This document shows positions 40,834 through 49,901 of a stretch of DNA of 55,200 bases, piece after piece. Under the pieces are notes generated by a model, which was not told where the DNA came from, did no database searches, and saw only the letters and a list, made by a program, of their open reading frames with translations. The DNA is from a virus, in the IMG/VR virus record IMGVR_UViG_3300046694_000640, positions 1 to 55,200 of that record; one strand, written 5' to 3'. Every line of letters starts with the position of its first letter. The first letter of the stretch is position 1. The translations under genes were made by a program, and so were the position numbers.

Positions 40834-41757
40834 TTATGATGTACAATAACCGCCATGGCAGCCGCCACCGCGCATTTTAAACAAATCAAGCTGAGGTGCT
40901 AAAATTTTGATCTGGCTCATAGATAAGCTTGCATGTAATGTACCGGCCTGCATATCTTCAAGGACCATTGCTGTATGCATTATTCCCGGATGAGTATCGA
41001 AATTATTTCTTAATTGCATTGGATGCTTCCAGAAACAAAATTGGCAATTGCTATCATCCGCAAACTCAACCGGTTTATCCTGCCAGTACCTCTGGATATC
41101 AGACTGGACTATACCCGCTTCAATCAAAGGAAACTCCCCAATTCTAAAGGCTACTTCTTTTTTTCGAATAGCATACGAGTAACCGTTCCTGGTAACTGGG
41201 TAAGTAAGAATGGCGTTAGATTTTTGCTGAAAGTGATTATTTTCATCGATATGCATCTCACAATGGCTGTTCATGATAAAGGTATCCTTAAATGTGTTGG
41301 CACGTTCAGATTCATCAGCCCTGAACCCAATACGCATCTTGCATGGCAATGACCTCCAGTTGTATAGGAATCGAAATATAGGCTCGATCTTAAAAATTGA
41401 TGTGCACCAGCGATGCTGCTTATTTGGAAGCATCGACTTTCCGAAAGTAGTTTGCTGAAAGCATGGTCCACGGAGCCATATGATTTCCCGACCAATGAAC
41501 TGCTCAAGGTCAAACATAGTTTTGATTGTTATAGGATCCTCGGCGGTGCACACAAATTCATGTTGATCACTGCAATATTTTTGCAGCTTATCATTAACCA
41601 TTTGCCTTACTTTTTTGTCGATTGTGAATGTTTTGGAGCCAGCGTTGGAATTGTGATCATCCATACATACCAGCGCGAACACTTCATTATCGGCCGGGTA
41701 ATGCGCGGCTATGTATGAGCTTGTTTTGCCGCCAGATAAACTGTTTACTGTGATCAT
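40834..41757 (-). CDS. PP-loop (PAPS-reductase-fold) family protein
   Basis: A 307-residue protein of the adenine-nucleotide alpha-hydrolase superfamily that includes PAPS reductases and DndC-type sulfur-modification enzymes. The PP-loop SLSGGKTSS is at 6-14. Cysteines that could bind an iron-sulfur cluster are Cys118 (HRWCTS), Cys238 and Cys241 (NCQFCFWKH), and a C-terminal CHGGYC. It overlaps the PcfJ-like gene by 4 bases. No dnd, ssp or tRNA-thiolation partners are visible. Possible roles are DNA or RNA thiolation or simply cysteine supply; the function is not resolved. Confidence 0.8.
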   Translation of the reverse strand: MITVNSLSGGKTSSYIAAHYPADNEVFALVCMDDHNSNAGSKTFTIDKKVRQMVNDKLQKYCSDQHEFVCTAEDPITIKTMFDLEQFIGREIIWLRGPCFQQTTFGKSMLPNKQHRWCTSIFKIEPIFRFLYNWRSLPCKMRIGFRADESERANTFKDTFIMNSHCEMHIDENNHFQQKSNAILTYPVTRNGYSYAIRKKEVAFRIGEFPLIEAGIVQSDIQRYWQDKPVEFADDSNCQFCFWKHPMQLRNNFDTHPGIMHTAMVLEDMQAGTLHASLSMSQIKILAPQLDLFKMRGGGCHGGYCTS

Positions 41758-43049
41758 GCTGCAACTTCCTGGCTAAGCAAATACCTTTGTTGAATTTCGG
41801 GAAAGTGACTTGTCAAAAGGGCTATTATATCTTTGTTGCGTTCAGTAGCACGATTTTGCAAACCTCTGGACTGAATAACCTTCATATCAGATAGTGACAA
41901 CTCAATTGTTTCGATAGATACGCCGTTTACCTGTGCCGAAAAACATAGTGAATTCTCTTTTTTAAAGTATTCATTAGTAAACACGCAATGGTGATGAGTT
42001 TCTCCCTCTTCAAAAAACTCACTAACGTGCTCGAGAACTTTGATTGTTAAATCGTCCTTAGTGAAAATCAAACCGAAGAAAACTTGCTTTGCCTGTTGAT
42101 AATCAATTTGCGAGGCATTTATTTTATCTAACTGATTTTCAAGCTTAAGACGCTTTTCATTCTTAGCTTTGTATGCAACCAAACGATCATGAGCTGCATT
42201 CAGATTTTTTGGACATACATAAACAGGTGAGCGCAAATCCTTACCGCAATACTCGAGCAGTACCAGGTAATCAAGATAGGTTATGGCATCCTTGACTATG
42301 TATCCGCGCCTGAGACATATTTTAATTGAACTCCAAAATTTTCTAACCTGATGAGATCGGTCATGGCCAATTCTGGCACTCATAAGCGCAATTTGATTGG
42401 CCTTAATAAGAGTTTCAGCTATGGAATCAGTGGTGATTGCCCGAAATACAGAAAGCGGACTTTGGTAGCCAACTTTACCTTTAAATCCATTCCTCTGATA
42501 AATTGGAAGTACCTTATATTTTGGATATATACCATCAGGTACACAGTTATATTTGCTATCCATCCAGTCACGATCTCTTATTTCAAGATCGCCGCTAAAA
42601 TTTTCAGCCATGTAATAACCCATCCCGCCCCTGTTCCTGGCAATAACTTCACTTTTGCCATTTGGATTAATATATTGCTGAATTATTTCCCAAAAGAAGG
42701 TCCTTGGAGGGCGGCCGGCTTTCTGATAAACAAATAATTGAAAGTGTCTAACGATTTGAAATCCTTCTTTAACATCTAGCGCACAGACATACACTTTCTG
42801 ATCATTAAGTTTCTTCTTTGTATCCTTCATGATCAATCTTCTATAACATGAGGGGCACTTATCAAATTTACCAGTTGGCTTACCTTTCCAAACATGACCG
42901 CAACTTAAGCATTGAGACTTGGTTTTGGTTCTATAACCTAAATGATCAATAAGCTTATCAAAAGCCCATAGCTTTAAGACATTTTCAAGATTAGGTAATT
43001 CATTAGAAATCCTTGTAACCTGCAGGTGTAATTTGGTGCGTGGTTTCAT
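41754..43049 (-). CDS. PcfJ-like protein with zinc ribbon
   Basis: A 431-residue protein. N-terminal four-cysteine zinc ribbon (SQCLSCGHVWKG, CPSCYRR, about 45-72), followed by a mainly helical region and the C-terminal PcfJ-like block with EGETHHHCVFTNEYFKKENS and VIQSRGLQNRA (about 350-410). PcfJ is named from the pCF10 conjugative plasmid and is common on Bacteroidota mobile elements, but its biochemical role is unknown to me. It is followed on the message by the PP-loop gene and preceded by a PcfK-like gene, the usual partner. Cys/His residues in the C-terminal block suggest metal binding or catalysis. Confidence 0.8.
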   Translation of the reverse strand: MKPRTKLHLQVTRISNELPNLENVLKLWAFDKLIDHLGYRTKTKSQCLSCGHVWKGKPTGKFDKCPSCYRRLIMKDTKKKLNDQKVYVCALDVKEGFQIVRHFQLFVYQKAGRPPRTFFWEIIQQYINPNGKSEVIARNRGGMGYYMAENFSGDLEIRDRDWMDSKYNCVPDGIYPKYKVLPIYQRNGFKGKVGYQSPLSVFRAITTDSIAETLIKANQIALMSARIGHDRSHQVRKFWSSIKICLRRGYIVKDAITYLDYLVLLEYCGKDLRSPVYVCPKNLNAAHDRLVAYKAKNEKRLKLENQLDKINASQIDYQQAKQVFFGLIFTKDDLTIKVLEHVSEFFEEGETHHHCVFTNEYFKKENSLCFSAQVNGVSIETIELSLSDMKVIQSRGLQNRATERNKDIIALLTSHFPEIQQRYLLSQEVAA

Positions 43050-43051
43050 GA

Positions 43052-43444
43052 TTAAAACAATGATTGTTGATTTTCAATGATTAATTTTTTTGTAGCTGGC
43101 TTTTTAGAGGCTACCTGAGGTTCAGTATTTACCTCGCCTTTTGTTGGTTGCTTGTCTGACTTTTTGGCCGGTGCCTCAATATGGTGATTAACCACAACCC
43201 TGCCGCTAACAGGTTTACCAACCTCAATATTATCCTCGTCATAGTAATGCACTGCCATGCCGAATATCTCAGCATCGGCAAAGCCATTTTGACCGCTGGC
43301 TTTTACCTGGTTAAGAATATATGTAGTGCAGTCATCAATATTTTTACCCGGCTTATTTAGCGTTTCAGCAAACAAAGGATCGCTTATGGCCAGATTAAGA
43401 AGATGATCACTGATGACGGTTTTAAATGCTGCTGTTCCTTGCAT
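43052..43444 (-). CDS. PcfK-like protein
   Basis: A 130-residue protein with the PcfK signature: helical N-terminal domain (FKTVISDHLLNLAISDPLFA), then NGFADAEIFGMAVHYYDED (about 74-92) and a charged, disordered C-terminus with Lys/Pro/Ala runs. It is 2 bases upstream of the PcfJ-like gene. The two occur together on plasmids and conjugative elements, so their presence in a prophage suggests exchange with those elements. Confidence 0.78.
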   Translation of the reverse strand: MQGTAAFKTVISDHLLNLAISDPLFAETLNKPGKNIDDCTTYILNQVKASGQNGFADAEIFGMAVHYYDEDNIEVGKPVSGRVVVNHHIEAPAKKSDKQPTKGEVNTEPQVASKKPATKKLIIENQQSLF

Positions 43445-43448
43445 GATC

Positions 43449-43691
43449 TCACCCTCCTATCTGTTTAACATCAAACTGATCAGGTAACCGGCTCACTGTG
43501 CCATTTCCAAGCAAGCGAGCTGCATCAAGCATCAACTTGTTTGACGCTATAACCTGTGATGCAATGCCACTCATGGCATCTGCCTTTTTTATTTCCAGCT
43601 TCATTTGCTCGGGCTTTAACGTTTCATCATTCAGGCGCTCTAACTGCGCGAATAGATGATTATTCAGGTCTGCTATTTTGTTTTGTGCCAT
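43449..43691 (-). CDS. Small helical hypothetical protein
   Basis: An 80-residue helical protein (KIADLNNHLFAQLERLNDET, EIKKADAMSGIASQVIASNK) with a pattern I have met in many phage genomes next to replication genes, annotated only as phage protein. It overlaps the HNH-type gene by 32 bases. No catalytic motif. Confidence 0.65.
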   Translation of the reverse strand: MAQNKIADLNNHLFAQLERLNDETLKPEQMKLEIKKADAMSGIASQVIASNKLMLDAARLLGNGTVSRLPDQFDVKQIGG

Positions 43692-44556
43692 GTTCTTTGA
43701 TTTTTCTATTGATTAATAATTGAGTTCGTTTAGCTTTAATGAGTTCAGGATGGTTAAGTATTTCATCCCTCAGGTCATGATTTATCGATCTGGATGATGT
43801 GGACAAGTAATTCGCGACTCGTTTATCAGAAAGATCCCGGGTGCCAGAGTTTCTGATTCTGTTTTCAAGTCTGGTAATCAGCTCCCAATTATCAGGATCA
43901 CAATCTAATGTATCGCCGAGGCACCACAAGCAATATCCATCGGGGATAGGCCCATGAACTTGCTCCCAGTTATATCGTTGTAGCAATTGCCAGTTACCTA
44001 TGCTTATCCTGATATATTTATATGGTGGATCACCCTTCTTATGCCTAATGCTGATAACCCCATCATGCTCCTTAGTATTATGTGGCTTGTTACCTTTTTG
44101 GAACCTGGTTGATTTAGTACGATCAATGGCTTCCTGAGTCATGTATTCAGCTTGTTTCAGCCCTTTATTAGGTGGAGGTGTACCAGGCTTAATTCTCGTT
44201 TCGACAAGTCTTTTAGCCATAATGTCTGCCGGGATCACAAGGCCTAATCGTTTTATAGCTCCACTAATACCACAATCGCTACGGCCAAGATCTTTGCCTA
44301 ATTGTCCAAAACTATGTGTTAAATAATGTTGTTTTATATAATCGTCCTCAGCCTGAGTGAAAGTTGTCTTTCCTATTTTTTTAAGTGTTCTGAAATGATT
44401 ACTTACTTCCTTTGGAACTATTAAACCGGATCCCCTTAACCATCGGCGTACAACTTGACCGGTACAATTTAAAAGAATGCCTAAATCGTTACTGCTTTTA
44501 GCAAGGTAATTATCTCTCAAATACTGATGTTCCTTTTCGCTAAATATGTGCTTCAT
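43660..44556 (-). CDS. HTH–HNH-like protein with altered HNH histidines
   Basis: A 298-residue protein. Residues about 1-110 hold two HTH-like segments (NDLGILLNCTGQVVRRWLRG and GQLGKDLGRSDCGISGAIKR) that would bind DNA. Residues about 180-235 follow the HNH_3 frame (YNWEQVHGPIPDGYCLWC, DCDPDNWELITRLENR), but the usual histidines in the L-H-R and V-H-H positions are Gln/Tyr and Leu/Trp. Nuclease activity is therefore doubtful. It may be a worn homing endonuclease or a DNA-binding regulator. It overlaps the downstream gene and shares 4 bases with the upstream one. Confidence 0.75.
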   Translation of the reverse strand: MKHIFSEKEHQYLRDNYLAKSSNDLGILLNCTGQVVRRWLRGSGLIVPKEVSNHFRTLKKIGKTTFTQAEDDYIKQHYLTHSFGQLGKDLGRSDCGISGAIKRLGLVIPADIMAKRLVETRIKPGTPPPNKGLKQAEYMTQEAIDRTKSTRFQKGNKPHNTKEHDGVISIRHKKGDPPYKYIRISIGNWQLLQRYNWEQVHGPIPDGYCLWCLGDTLDCDPDNWELITRLENRIRNSGTRDLSDKRVANYLSTSSRSINHDLRDEILNHPELIKAKRTQLLINRKIKEHGTKQNSRPE

Positions 44557-45297: not shown

Positions 45298-45372
45298 TTA
45301 TATAATTTCGACAGTTATTATAGATACCTGGCTGTCATCACAGGTTATTATTTCGTAGGTGGTGATCAGCAT
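45298..45372 (-). CDS. Possible 24-residue peptide
   Basis: The ATG overlaps the end of the repeat-protein gene by 7 bases and encodes MLITTYEIITCDDSQVSIIT plus four residues. It is polar/hydrophobic alternating, so a beta peptide is possible. Support is only the overlap; it may not be expressed. A hairpin (CCGAAGGC/GCCTTTCGG) follows before the SSB-like gene. Confidence 0.3.
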   Translation of the reverse strand: MLITTYEIITCDDSQVSIITVEII

Positions 45373-46508
45373 TCGAACGTTACTAAAGATTTGAATTTAT
45401 CAAATCCGAATGGGGTTGTCTTTTTAAGTAACTTGAATAAATCAATCGCTTTAATAGGATTAACTTCAACTGTCCTTTCATTGCCAGTCCCCTGATTCTC
45501 TATCTTAAAGGGTATACCATTGGACTCCATGAATGACCGGCATCCAAAGTCACAAGCGCCGGTGATCAGGCGATAGTGATTAACTGTAAGCAGGGTATCT
45601 TCATTTATAGGGTCATTTTTTAACTTTTCGGAAGCAATTTTGAATTGAAGATCAGAAATTGAACCCTTCAAAGTTTCGCCATGAGCATAGAACCCATCTT
45701 TTTCAGACACGAAACAGGCTTTCTTTATCGATTTTCCCTCTTGTATTGATTGTATAACATATCCGGTATAAATTTTAATACCTTTTGAGGTTTTATCAGA
45801 TTCAATCACAAATAACGTATTATCAACTGCCTTCCAGCGCAAATCTTTGATTTGTGGGATGTTCAACGTAGCGCCCTCCTGAACATCGATGTAACCTGAT
45901 ACTTCGGTTAGTGCCGGTGCTGTCAACGTAGCGCCCTGACGAACATAGATGGAACCTGATTTCGTTAGTGCCGGTGCTGTCAACGTAGCGCCCTCCTGAA
46001 CATAGATGGAACCTGATTTCGTTAGTGCCGGTGCTGTCAACGTAGCGCCCTCCTGAACATCGATGTAACCTGATACTTCGGTTAGTGCCGGTGCTGTCAA
46101 CGTAGCGCCCTGACGAACATAGATGGAACCTGATTTCGTTAGTGCCGGTGCTGTCAACGTAGCGCCCTGACGAACATCGATGTAACCTGATTTCGTTAGT
46201 GCCGGTGCTGTCAACGTAGCGCCCTCCTGAACATAGATGGAACCTGATTTCGTTAGTGCCGGTGCTGTCAACGTAGCGCCCTCCTGAACATCGATGTAAC
46301 CTGATACTTCGGTTAGTGCCGGTGCTGTCAACGTAGCGCCCTGACGAACATAGATGGAACCTGATTTCGTTAGTGCCGGTGCTGTCAACGTAGCGCCCTC
46401 CTGAACATCGATGTAACCTGATACTTCGGTTAGGTTTTTAAAGTTGTGCTGATTCTCCAACGTAACAGTCAAGTCACCAGAGATTTTTAATTCTTTTTCT
46501 TTTTTCAT
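45366..46508 (-). CDS. Mosaic tandem-repeat protein
   Basis: A 380-residue protein. After a short lead (KKEKELKISGDLTVTLENQH) come ten repeats of 19-20 residues (26-219) such as LTEVSGYIDVQEGATLTAPA and LTKSGSIYVRQGATLTAPA, then a unique C-terminal domain (about 220-380) with SIQEGKSIKKACFVSEKDGF, LTVNHYRLITGACDFGCRS and CRSFMESNGIPF. The regular spacing suggests a beta-solenoid, with each repeat one or two coils. Copies are nearly identical in DNA, so repeat number is likely to change by recombination. No signal peptide. The function is unknown; a protein-binding or DNA-mimic surface is possible. Confidence 0.8.
   Translation of the reverse strand: MKKEKELKISGDLTVTLENQHNFKNLTEVSGYIDVQEGATLTAPALTKSGSIYVRQGATLTAPALTEVSGYIDVQEGATLTAPALTKSGSIYVQEGATLTAPALTKSGYIDVRQGATLTAPALTKSGSIYVRQGATLTAPALTEVSGYIDVQEGATLTAPALTKSGSIYVQEGATLTAPALTKSGSIYVRQGATLTAPALTEVSGYIDVQEGATLNIPQIKDLRWKAVDNTLFVIESDKTSKGIKIYTGYVIQSIQEGKSIKKACFVSEKDGFYAHGETLKGSISDLQFKIASEKLKNDPINEDTLLTVNHYRLITGACDFGCRSFMESNGIPFKIENQGTGNERTVEVNPIKAIDLFKLLKKTTPFGFDKFKSLVTFEC
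45852..46433 (-). repeat. Tandem 57-60 bp repeat array (10 units)
   Basis: Ten in-frame units with long identical stretches; units differ at three switchable places: TEVSG or TKSG, YID or SIY, and VQEG or VRQG. The combinations are mixed (for example TKSGYIDVRQG occurs once), indicating recombination between copies rather than simple duplication. Confidence 0.9.
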
Positions 46509-46693
46509 TTTAACTTTTGTAGCGAACGTTTGATATTGGTATTGATTGAAGCAAGATTGTTTTTGATGTATTCCCTTAAGTCCCCATGAGCTTTATTCTC
46601 AGTATAAAGCCACAGCAGGTAACTATCGGGAACATTAGCCAGGGCTTTGCCTTTATGCATGCCCCACGGCATCGGTGATTGGTCGGTGTACAT
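46505..46693 (-). CDS. DUF3820-like small protein
   Basis: A 62-residue protein with the DUF3820 signature MPWGMHKGKALANVPDSYLL. This short domain also occurs at the end of exonuclease X-like proteins and in several phages. No catalytic residues are visible. It overlaps the repeat-protein gene by 4 bases and the GHKL gene by 1. Confidence 0.75.
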   Translation of the reverse strand: MYTDQSPMPWGMHKGKALANVPDSYLLWLYTENKAHGDLREYIKNNLASINTNIKRSLQKLK

Positions 46694-48938: not shown

Positions 48939-49074
48939 GTAGTTTAATTTGTTTTGGTGATGCTGCCGGCTTTGGTTTAACCGGCAGCAAAAAGTTATTT
49001 CTGATCTGTGAGATTTCAGTTTCTTGATATTCAGATTCCTGGTACTGAATAAAAGCGTTTTTTGAGTATGACAT
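48925..49074 (-). CDS. Possible 49-residue coupled protein
   Basis: The ATG overlaps the stop of the Sak4-like gene (TAATG) and the frame ends 14 bases inside the next gene. It encodes MSYSKNAFIQYQESEYQETE followed by a Pro/Lys-rich end. It is polar and possibly unstructured. The coupling is the main evidence. Confidence 0.45.
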   Translation of the reverse strand: MSYSKNAFIQYQESEYQETEISQIRNNFLLPVKPKPAASPKQIKLHGKS

Positions 49075-49901
49075 TAGGCAGTAGCAGAGGTTAGCTTAGC
49101 TTTTAGCTCATCCTTCAGCTTCATTTGCTCTTTTTGGTCTGATACAGGCAAAGACTTATATACATTGGCCAGTTCGGTCAGCGTAGTTGCTTCACGTAGT
49201 TTATCAGCTGCAGATTTCATAGTTGCACCTGTTTCACACCAGCTTCTGATCTCTTCACCGGTTGCCTCAGTAATAAGAAAAGGATTTTTTCCTTCAAATA
49301 ACTCGGTCCTGTCCTTGCTTGGTATAGCCAGGTGAGTATCGCGGTCAATGTTAAGTGATACGGTCAACTCATACTCCCAGCCTTCGCGCTGCTGGTCTTT
49401 CATCCCAACCTTTTTAACCTTTTTGTCTTCGCCCATAACAGTCTCCATTTTTGAGCGTGTACATGTGATGATGTGGGCTGTAGATTGTAATACCTTGTTT
49501 ACAAACCTATCATGACGTGGAGTGGTAACTGACCAGGCCGACCAGGTATTGCCACGGAATTTAGCTTGAGCCAATAATTCGTTTTCCTCTATAACACAGT
49601 TCCACTCATGGGTAGTGCTGTCCAGAATAATAACTTCCATGCCTGCCTTTTCGCATATTTCAATTGCTTGTATGTACTTTTCGGGTGTATATGGGGCAGT
49701 CAGACCGATTGTATTGAACCCACCTAAGTTTGAGTAAAGACTTGCAGATTCATTCTCGGTATCAATAACTGCGACTTTTTCCCAATCACCACATAGGCCT
49801 TTGGCCATGCGTAGTGCTGAATAAGTTTTACCGGCACCACTCGGAGCAGATATGTTTAAACGAAGCTTTACTTTACTTCTGGTTGCTTTTTTAAGTTCCA
49901 T
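49074..49901 (-). CDS. Sak4-like RecA-fold ATPase
   Basis: A 275-residue RecA-core ATPase with Walker A APSGAGKT (19-26), an aspartate in VAVIDTEN, and Walker B VIILDS (90-95). No full RecA DNA-binding region or C-terminal domain, like Sak4 single-strand annealing proteins and other phage nucleotide-binding proteins. The C-terminal part (about 225-275) is helical and Lys/Ala-rich. It is in an operon with a PD-(D/E)XK nuclease and an SSB-like protein, so recombination-dependent replication or repair is likely. Confidence 0.82.
   Translation of the reverse strand: MELKKATRSKVKLRLNISAPSGAGKTYSALRMAKGLCGDWEKVAVIDTENESASLYSNLGGFNTIGLTAPYTPEKYIQAIEICEKAGMEVIILDSTTHEWNCVIEENELLAQAKFRGNTWSAWSVTTPRHDRFVNKVLQSTAHIITCTRSKMETVMGEDKKVKKVGMKDQQREGWEYELTVSLNIDRDTHLAIPSKDRTELFEGKNPFLITEATGEEIRSWCETGATMKSAADKLREATTLTELANVYKSLPVSDQKEQMKLKDELKAKLTSATA

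Follow-up and report, generated by a model that had tools for sequence, protein, structure and literature searches.

The repeat protein described here resembles several known systems in part. In lamprey variable lymphocyte receptors, LRR-type modules are recombined to alter residues on a beta-sheet face. Diversity-generating retroelements of the Mtd type, which likewise act on phage genes, generate local hypervariability among exposed residues. The BspA-type LRR (Pfam LRR_5, PF13306) consists of short xLxLx-type strands repeated in tandem, and the autotransporter adhesins Ag43 and AIDA-I have a long beta-helix of ~19-residue repeats. Going by the entries listed in PMC11107207 (Fellouse 2005, 2006; Birtalan 2008), synthetic minimalist libraries place a very small Tyr/Ser(/Asp/Arg) alphabet at fixed surface positions, and such sets suffice for synthetic binding proteins.

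The window analysed here is a stretch of 55,200 nucleotides from a 55.2-kb virus record (IMGVR_UViG_3300046694_000640), a metagenomic contig that is possibly incomplete. The repeat protein of the original prediction is borne out as an open frame containing ten near-identical units of 19 or 20 residues. The parts of the gene and three genes of its surroundings are as follows.

45366..46508, minus strand: whole gene, an open reading frame of 380 aa with an N-terminal cap, a repeat array and a C-terminal domain (CTD)
46434..46508, minus strand: N-terminal cap, residues 1-25, from the sequence, with strands in the model
45864..46433, minus strand: array of ten 19/20-aa units, residues 26-215, from the repeats and AlphaFold; predicted beta-solenoid
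45907..46137, minus strand: four-unit block, copy A of a 231-bp tandem duplication, from block comparison
46138..46368, minus strand: four-unit block, copy B of the same duplication, 99% identical to copy A
45369..45845, minus strand: conserved CTD, residues 222-380, five strands and then helices, from alignment and model; new predicted fold
45672..45683, minus strand: CTD motif H-G-[DE]-T from the alignment, with H276, G277 and T279 (H, G and T invariant in 38 sequences)
45552..45563, minus strand: CTD motif T-G-[AS]-C from the alignment, with T316, G317 and C319 invariant, followed by invariant G322
46505..46693, minus strand: gene directly upstream, QSregVF_b family, 62 aa
44858..45247, minus strand: next gene downstream, 129 aa, with an SSB-like acidic tail (EDDDLPF) visible in the sequence
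49074..49901, minus strand: AAA_24 RecA-like (recombinase-like) ATPase in the same early module

Tandem Repeats Finder gives the array a period of 57 nt with 9.7 copies, and higher-order periods of 174 and 231 nt (scores 885-1023). The core unit pattern occurs 10 times in the window against 0 expected from 100 shuffles, which excludes a chance origin. Three switchable segments per unit had been claimed and are present (KS/EVS, SIY/YID and RQ/QE), whereas their "many combinations" were slightly overstated, as 4 of the 8 possible ones are used. Units 1 to 5 read EVS-YID-QE, KS-SIY-RQ, EVS-YID-QE, KS-SIY-QE and KS-YID-RQ, and units 6 to 10 read KS-SIY-RQ, EVS-YID-QE, KS-SIY-QE, KS-SIY-RQ and EVS-YID-QE, so that all four pairings of SIY/YID with RQ/QE occur. 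The nine full units comprise four distinct DNA sequences that have no difference outside the three switches, and copies A and B of the 231-bp block differ at two positions, which together make one SIY/YID switch in one unit. The RQ and QE alternatives are 3 bases apart, which favours exchange between units over recurrent mutation. Both the identity of the unit DNA outside the switches and the block duplication support the proposed recombination between copies; the switch pairings and the duplication are the product of such exchange. The exact copy number cannot be guaranteed for a metagenomic contig, because 31 of 72 related contigs break off inside the array; a random 600-bp stretch would be expected to hold about 2–4 such ends, and 5 are observed just downstream.

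The beta-solenoid structure that had been put forward as a check is what AlphaFold predicts: with four homologues, the array is modelled as a confident, regular solenoid with pLDDT 92–98 over most of its length. A predicted strand covers KSGSIYV, in which the variable S51 and Y53 alternate with the conserved hydrophobic I52 and V54, and based on this strand pattern the switches would sit on one exposed face. The CTD is modelled with pLDDT 90 as five strands with helices after them. Its predicted fold has no structural match in the PDB at E<=0.001, and sequence and structure searches of the PDB returned nothing for the CTD or for the solenoid. Candidate structural matches to Rad52, a kinase and SPARTA were rejected (E>=0.08, very poor superposition), and among the viral predicted structures of BFVD the CTD has only four matches, all uncharacterised, one of them labelled "Lamprin".

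None of the known systems accounts for the whole protein. LRR_5 gives no match above its curated cut-off in the window protein, which shares with it the tandem arrangement of short xLxLx-type strands; a Riemerella homologue carries LRR_5 on the same CTD (E 9e-9, above cut-off), but LRR_5 accounts neither for the CTD nor for the restricted switchable alphabet. Similarity to Ag43 and AIDA-I is weak (26.7 and 23 bits against an NCBIfam cut-off of 1200), and membership was rejected; unlike these adhesins, the window protein has no signal peptide or barrel and is an early gene. Three Pfam families, each matching in two or three stretches, were rejected on the criterion of one match over most of the profile or for their scores: ChlamPMP_M and Hyd_WA exceed their cut-offs through short repeat-driven stretches (at best 34 of 174 and 15 of 30 profile positions, respectively), whereas DUF4097 covers its profile more fully but barely passes its cut-off (23.3 versus 22.9). 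A diversity-generating retroelement was also rejected. A reverse transcriptase (RVT_1) is absent from the virus record, which may be incomplete, the window holds no separate template copy of the repeat unit, and the changes are block duplications, unit indels and paired switches rather than adenine-directed substitutions. The lamprey receptors offer a functional parallel without membership, as the phage arrays are of other phylogeny, lack somatic assembly machinery and carry an unrelated constant domain.

The CTD is the constant part of a wider family. We recovered 78 distinct proteins that contain it, nearly all of them encoded by phages or prophages; at least 70 phages or prophages other than the window's virus have it joined to different repeats. 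By tblastn, it matches Riemerella phages CRP5 and CRP6, Dulem virus 31, Tetrasphaera phage TJE1 and human-gut phages, and Tenacibaculum phages match it in part. Scans of IMG/VR and bacterial genomes contributed loci L009–L115; these were recovered with narrower alignments, and scans of viral contigs with the whole protein or a two-sequence query gave no matches. In a 38-sequence alignment, H55, G56, T58, K69, T95, G96, C98 and G101 of the CTD are invariant. The original prediction that the domain has no recognised family stands, in that the 38 members scanned have no consistent significant match in Pfam, PHROGs, NCBIfam or PADLOC; the best recurrent match is DUF4261 (9 of 38 members, best E 1e-4) and the rest are scattered and weak. 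We found no description of the CTD-plus-repeats architecture in the open-access literature searched. The CTD is a domain without a model in current libraries, and it provides a handle for finding every such gene. These genes get missed where contigs break in them or where annotation reads hypothetical or "ribonuclease inhibitor". In phage TJE1 (L006:3653-4426) the array runs antisense to the annotated orf50 and was overlooked because the deposited orf51 starts beyond the repeats. A single isolate genome (IMG 2548877171) is the source of two virus records that both match the dipeptide-class CTD; one (L124) has a clear [S/Y/D]G array, and the other (L126) yielded no intact frame.

The CTD is nearly always preceded by an array of short repeats, and these fall into at least seven scaffold types that look unrelated to one another: GxLxI..NAxL units (in the window, in L009, L058 and L060, in L109 with three units, and in others), VGG[SY]L[DY]L..LPxx units (35 entries), BspA-like LRRs (the Riemerella homologue among the carriers), [S/Y/D]-Gly dipeptides (14 entries), 8-residue DNSSVVAR units, NNxLTS LRRs and GDYAQLASS units. 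A few entries have no scaffold class, some of them because the contig ends there. In a tree of the 78 distinct CTD sequences, dipeptide arrays are confined to one clade. By contrast, the GxLxI and BspA-like types, which may be remotely related to each other, each require 6 label changes over the whole tree, and the two are intermixed among the 11 CTDs of the clade that includes the window. This pattern suggests exchange of arrays, or their conversion, from one scaffold type to another. The dipeptide arrays, unlike the solenoid, may be disordered.

Across scaffolds, the units are identical or nearly so in DNA save for a few columns, mainly at outward strand positions. In three scaffold types most units vary at fixed outward positions and draw on a very small alphabet, S/Y, then D/Y, then R/E/S. 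Among 142 VGG-type units, position 1 is S/Y in 73%, position 2 is D/Y in 89% and position 3 is R/S/E in 83%; the corresponding values for the first two positions of 50 GxLxI units are 78% and 72%. The 418 dipeptides consist of S/Y/D to 92% and include no Ala. Synonymous codons for one choice differ among arrays (TCC/TAC/GAC versus TCT/TAT/GAT), and the alphabet is therefore not merely inherited DNA. Its likeness to the Y/S/D/R sets of the synthetic libraries, as listed in PMC11107207, supports a binding role by analogy, short of proof; unlike those libraries, these arrays are natural phage genes, and their binding is putative.

Arrays also change between close relatives, as had been foreseen, and do so faster than the sequence around them; their order is not fixed. 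Two near-identical phages (L047 and L048) have 11 internal differences in 8.9 kb of common sequence, of which 9, namely eight substitutions and a 6-bp indel, fall inside the 180-bp array. In the cultured Riemerella phages CRP5 and CRP6, ~3.5 kb around the gene contains 0 substitutions, yet one array is longer than the other by 132 bp, which is exactly two 22-aa units. L111 and L112 have a CTD in common, but the first has 22 dipeptide units and the second at least 34. Yet the contig trio L096–L098 has identical arrays. Outside phages, or apparently so, Parabacteroides sp. PM6-13 (L056:6921-8480) encodes a CTD protein with a long, decayed array beside an AgcS-type symporter gene; its unit identity is about 0.5, compared with 0.82–0.96 in the phage-type arrays measured, and this single case is consistent with turnover being a phage-side process.

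The gene directly upstream, the SSB-like gene and the AAA_24 ATPase place the window gene in an early module. The 129-aa downstream gene has no Pfam and no PDB match. Beyond it lies an HNH_3 endonuclease-type gene (43660-44556), possibly an inserted homing-type gene, situated between the SSB-like gene and PcfK/PcfJ-like genes. The PcfJ-like gene (41754-43444) matches Pfam with E 3e-34, and the adjoining 130-aa gene has ~75% DNA similarity to the PcfK-like gene found in Polaribacter Freya phages, which suggests that the host of the window virus belongs to the Bacteroidota. Neighbours at other loci include RecT, ERF, SSB, exonuclease, methylases, helicases, ParB and RusA. There is no general conserved partner gene among the loci examined; only the dipeptide class has a candidate, a conserved gene at 8 loci upstream of many of its members (for example, L023:4279-4593). 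DUF6948 matched 8 scanned neighbours, and a gene of this type may be a class-specific partner of dipeptide arrays. Since the loci are early DNA-metabolism modules and not tail genes, any partner is probably inside the cell. Judged by the neighbouring genes and the lack of a general partner, the protein would appear to be early, cytoplasmic and stand-alone.

Based on these sequence data and predictions, our best reading, to which we assign a probability of about 0.5, is that the protein carries a recombination-diversified, putative binding array on a constant effector or anchor domain and recognises a changing intracellular partner. The main rival, which we consider rather unlikely, is neutral turnover: the array would be an unstable tandem repeat of the ordinary kind, acting as a spacer or rigid stalk, which slippage would expand, contract and homogenise with no new surfaces being selected, and the CTD alone would matter. 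Array length varies widely among family members, and this on its own may reflect the usual instability of tandem repeats. In CRP5 and CRP6 a second, unrelated gene, a replication gene with DTVSDTVLDTVSDTDI repeats upstream of the replicative helicase (L118:812-1495, L119:37673-38203), also differs in length, by 96 bp, so that length change by itself is no proof of a diversification function. Furthermore, the variable columns over 22 arrays number 91 nonsynonymous and 39 synonymous-only; this ratio is about the neutral expectation, with no clear excess, and the column count does not support positive selection. A spacer, however, needs no S/Y and D/Y alternatives. Most VGG-type arrays have their variable columns mainly at outward strand positions, and separate scaffolds use the same residue pairs but encode them with different codons; Ala is missing from the dipeptide arrays.

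A different view of the same residues is that the repeats are multivalent sticky modules, in one class with Tyr stickers on Gly/Ser spacers, that form oligomers or condensates with phage recombination or replication proteins, their variation tuning valency rather than specificity. Tyr/Gly/Ser phase-separating tails are known, the pure [S/Y/D]-Gly arrays are alike in composition, and recombination and replication genes are frequent neighbours; but for the window array the prediction is a well-ordered solenoid, and valency alone requires no R/E or D/Y switching, and we regard this explanation as improbable. The neighbourhood weighs against a virion-surface or receptor-binding protein whose repeats track changes of the bacterial surface. 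Surface proteins often have variable repeats and the window protein has its weak adhesin matches, but the genes are surrounded by those of early DNA metabolism, the neighbour tallies shown include no tail or head family, no signal peptide or membrane stretch is visible on inspection of cap residues 1-25 and the Ag43 score is far below its cut-off; we think such a role very improbable. That the window pattern is an assembly artefact of a metagenomic contig is hardly credible. The many contigs that terminate within arrays indicate that assemblers struggle there, but arrays of the same kind precede the CTD in many unrelated contigs and in the finished genomes of the cultured phages CRP5, CRP6 and TJE1.

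For the preferred reading, a recombining array that recognises a changing partner, we propose the following mechanism. The protein would be made early in infection and act in the cytoplasm. Its N-terminal array would form a solenoid of stacked beta-strands with the conserved hydrophobic residues pointing inward, and each rung would present two or three outward switchable residues (S/Y; D/Y; R/E/Q/S), yielding a combinatorial surface. Recombination and slippage between near-identical unit DNAs would add, delete, reorder and switch rungs, and the surface could thereby evolve faster than the remaining phage. The CTD would contribute a constant function, which may be anchoring, oligomerisation or a putative activity via H-G-[DE]-T and T-G-[AS]-C. 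The likeliest use of such a surface would be to recognise a protein partner that itself changes, and in the infected cell this could be a defence protein, a host factor or a competing element; our guess is that counter-defence or competitor recognition is the most natural specific version.

The system may thus represent a natural means by which phages remodel a binding surface rapidly inside the infected cell. A broader proposal, which we advance tentatively and hold to be doubtful, is that phages of many hosts carry an undescribed combinatorial binder with interchangeable scaffolds, a near-minimal Tyr/Ser/Asp(/Arg/Glu) code reshuffled by recombination and one constant domain of predicted new fold. 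The Y/S/D code common to separate scaffolds makes the presumed target directly testable. If the proposal is true, prokaryotic viruses would have, in these arrays, an intracellular analogue of repeat-based recognition repertoires, and the arrays would provide phages with a general, retroelement-free route to change a recognition surface within a few generations.
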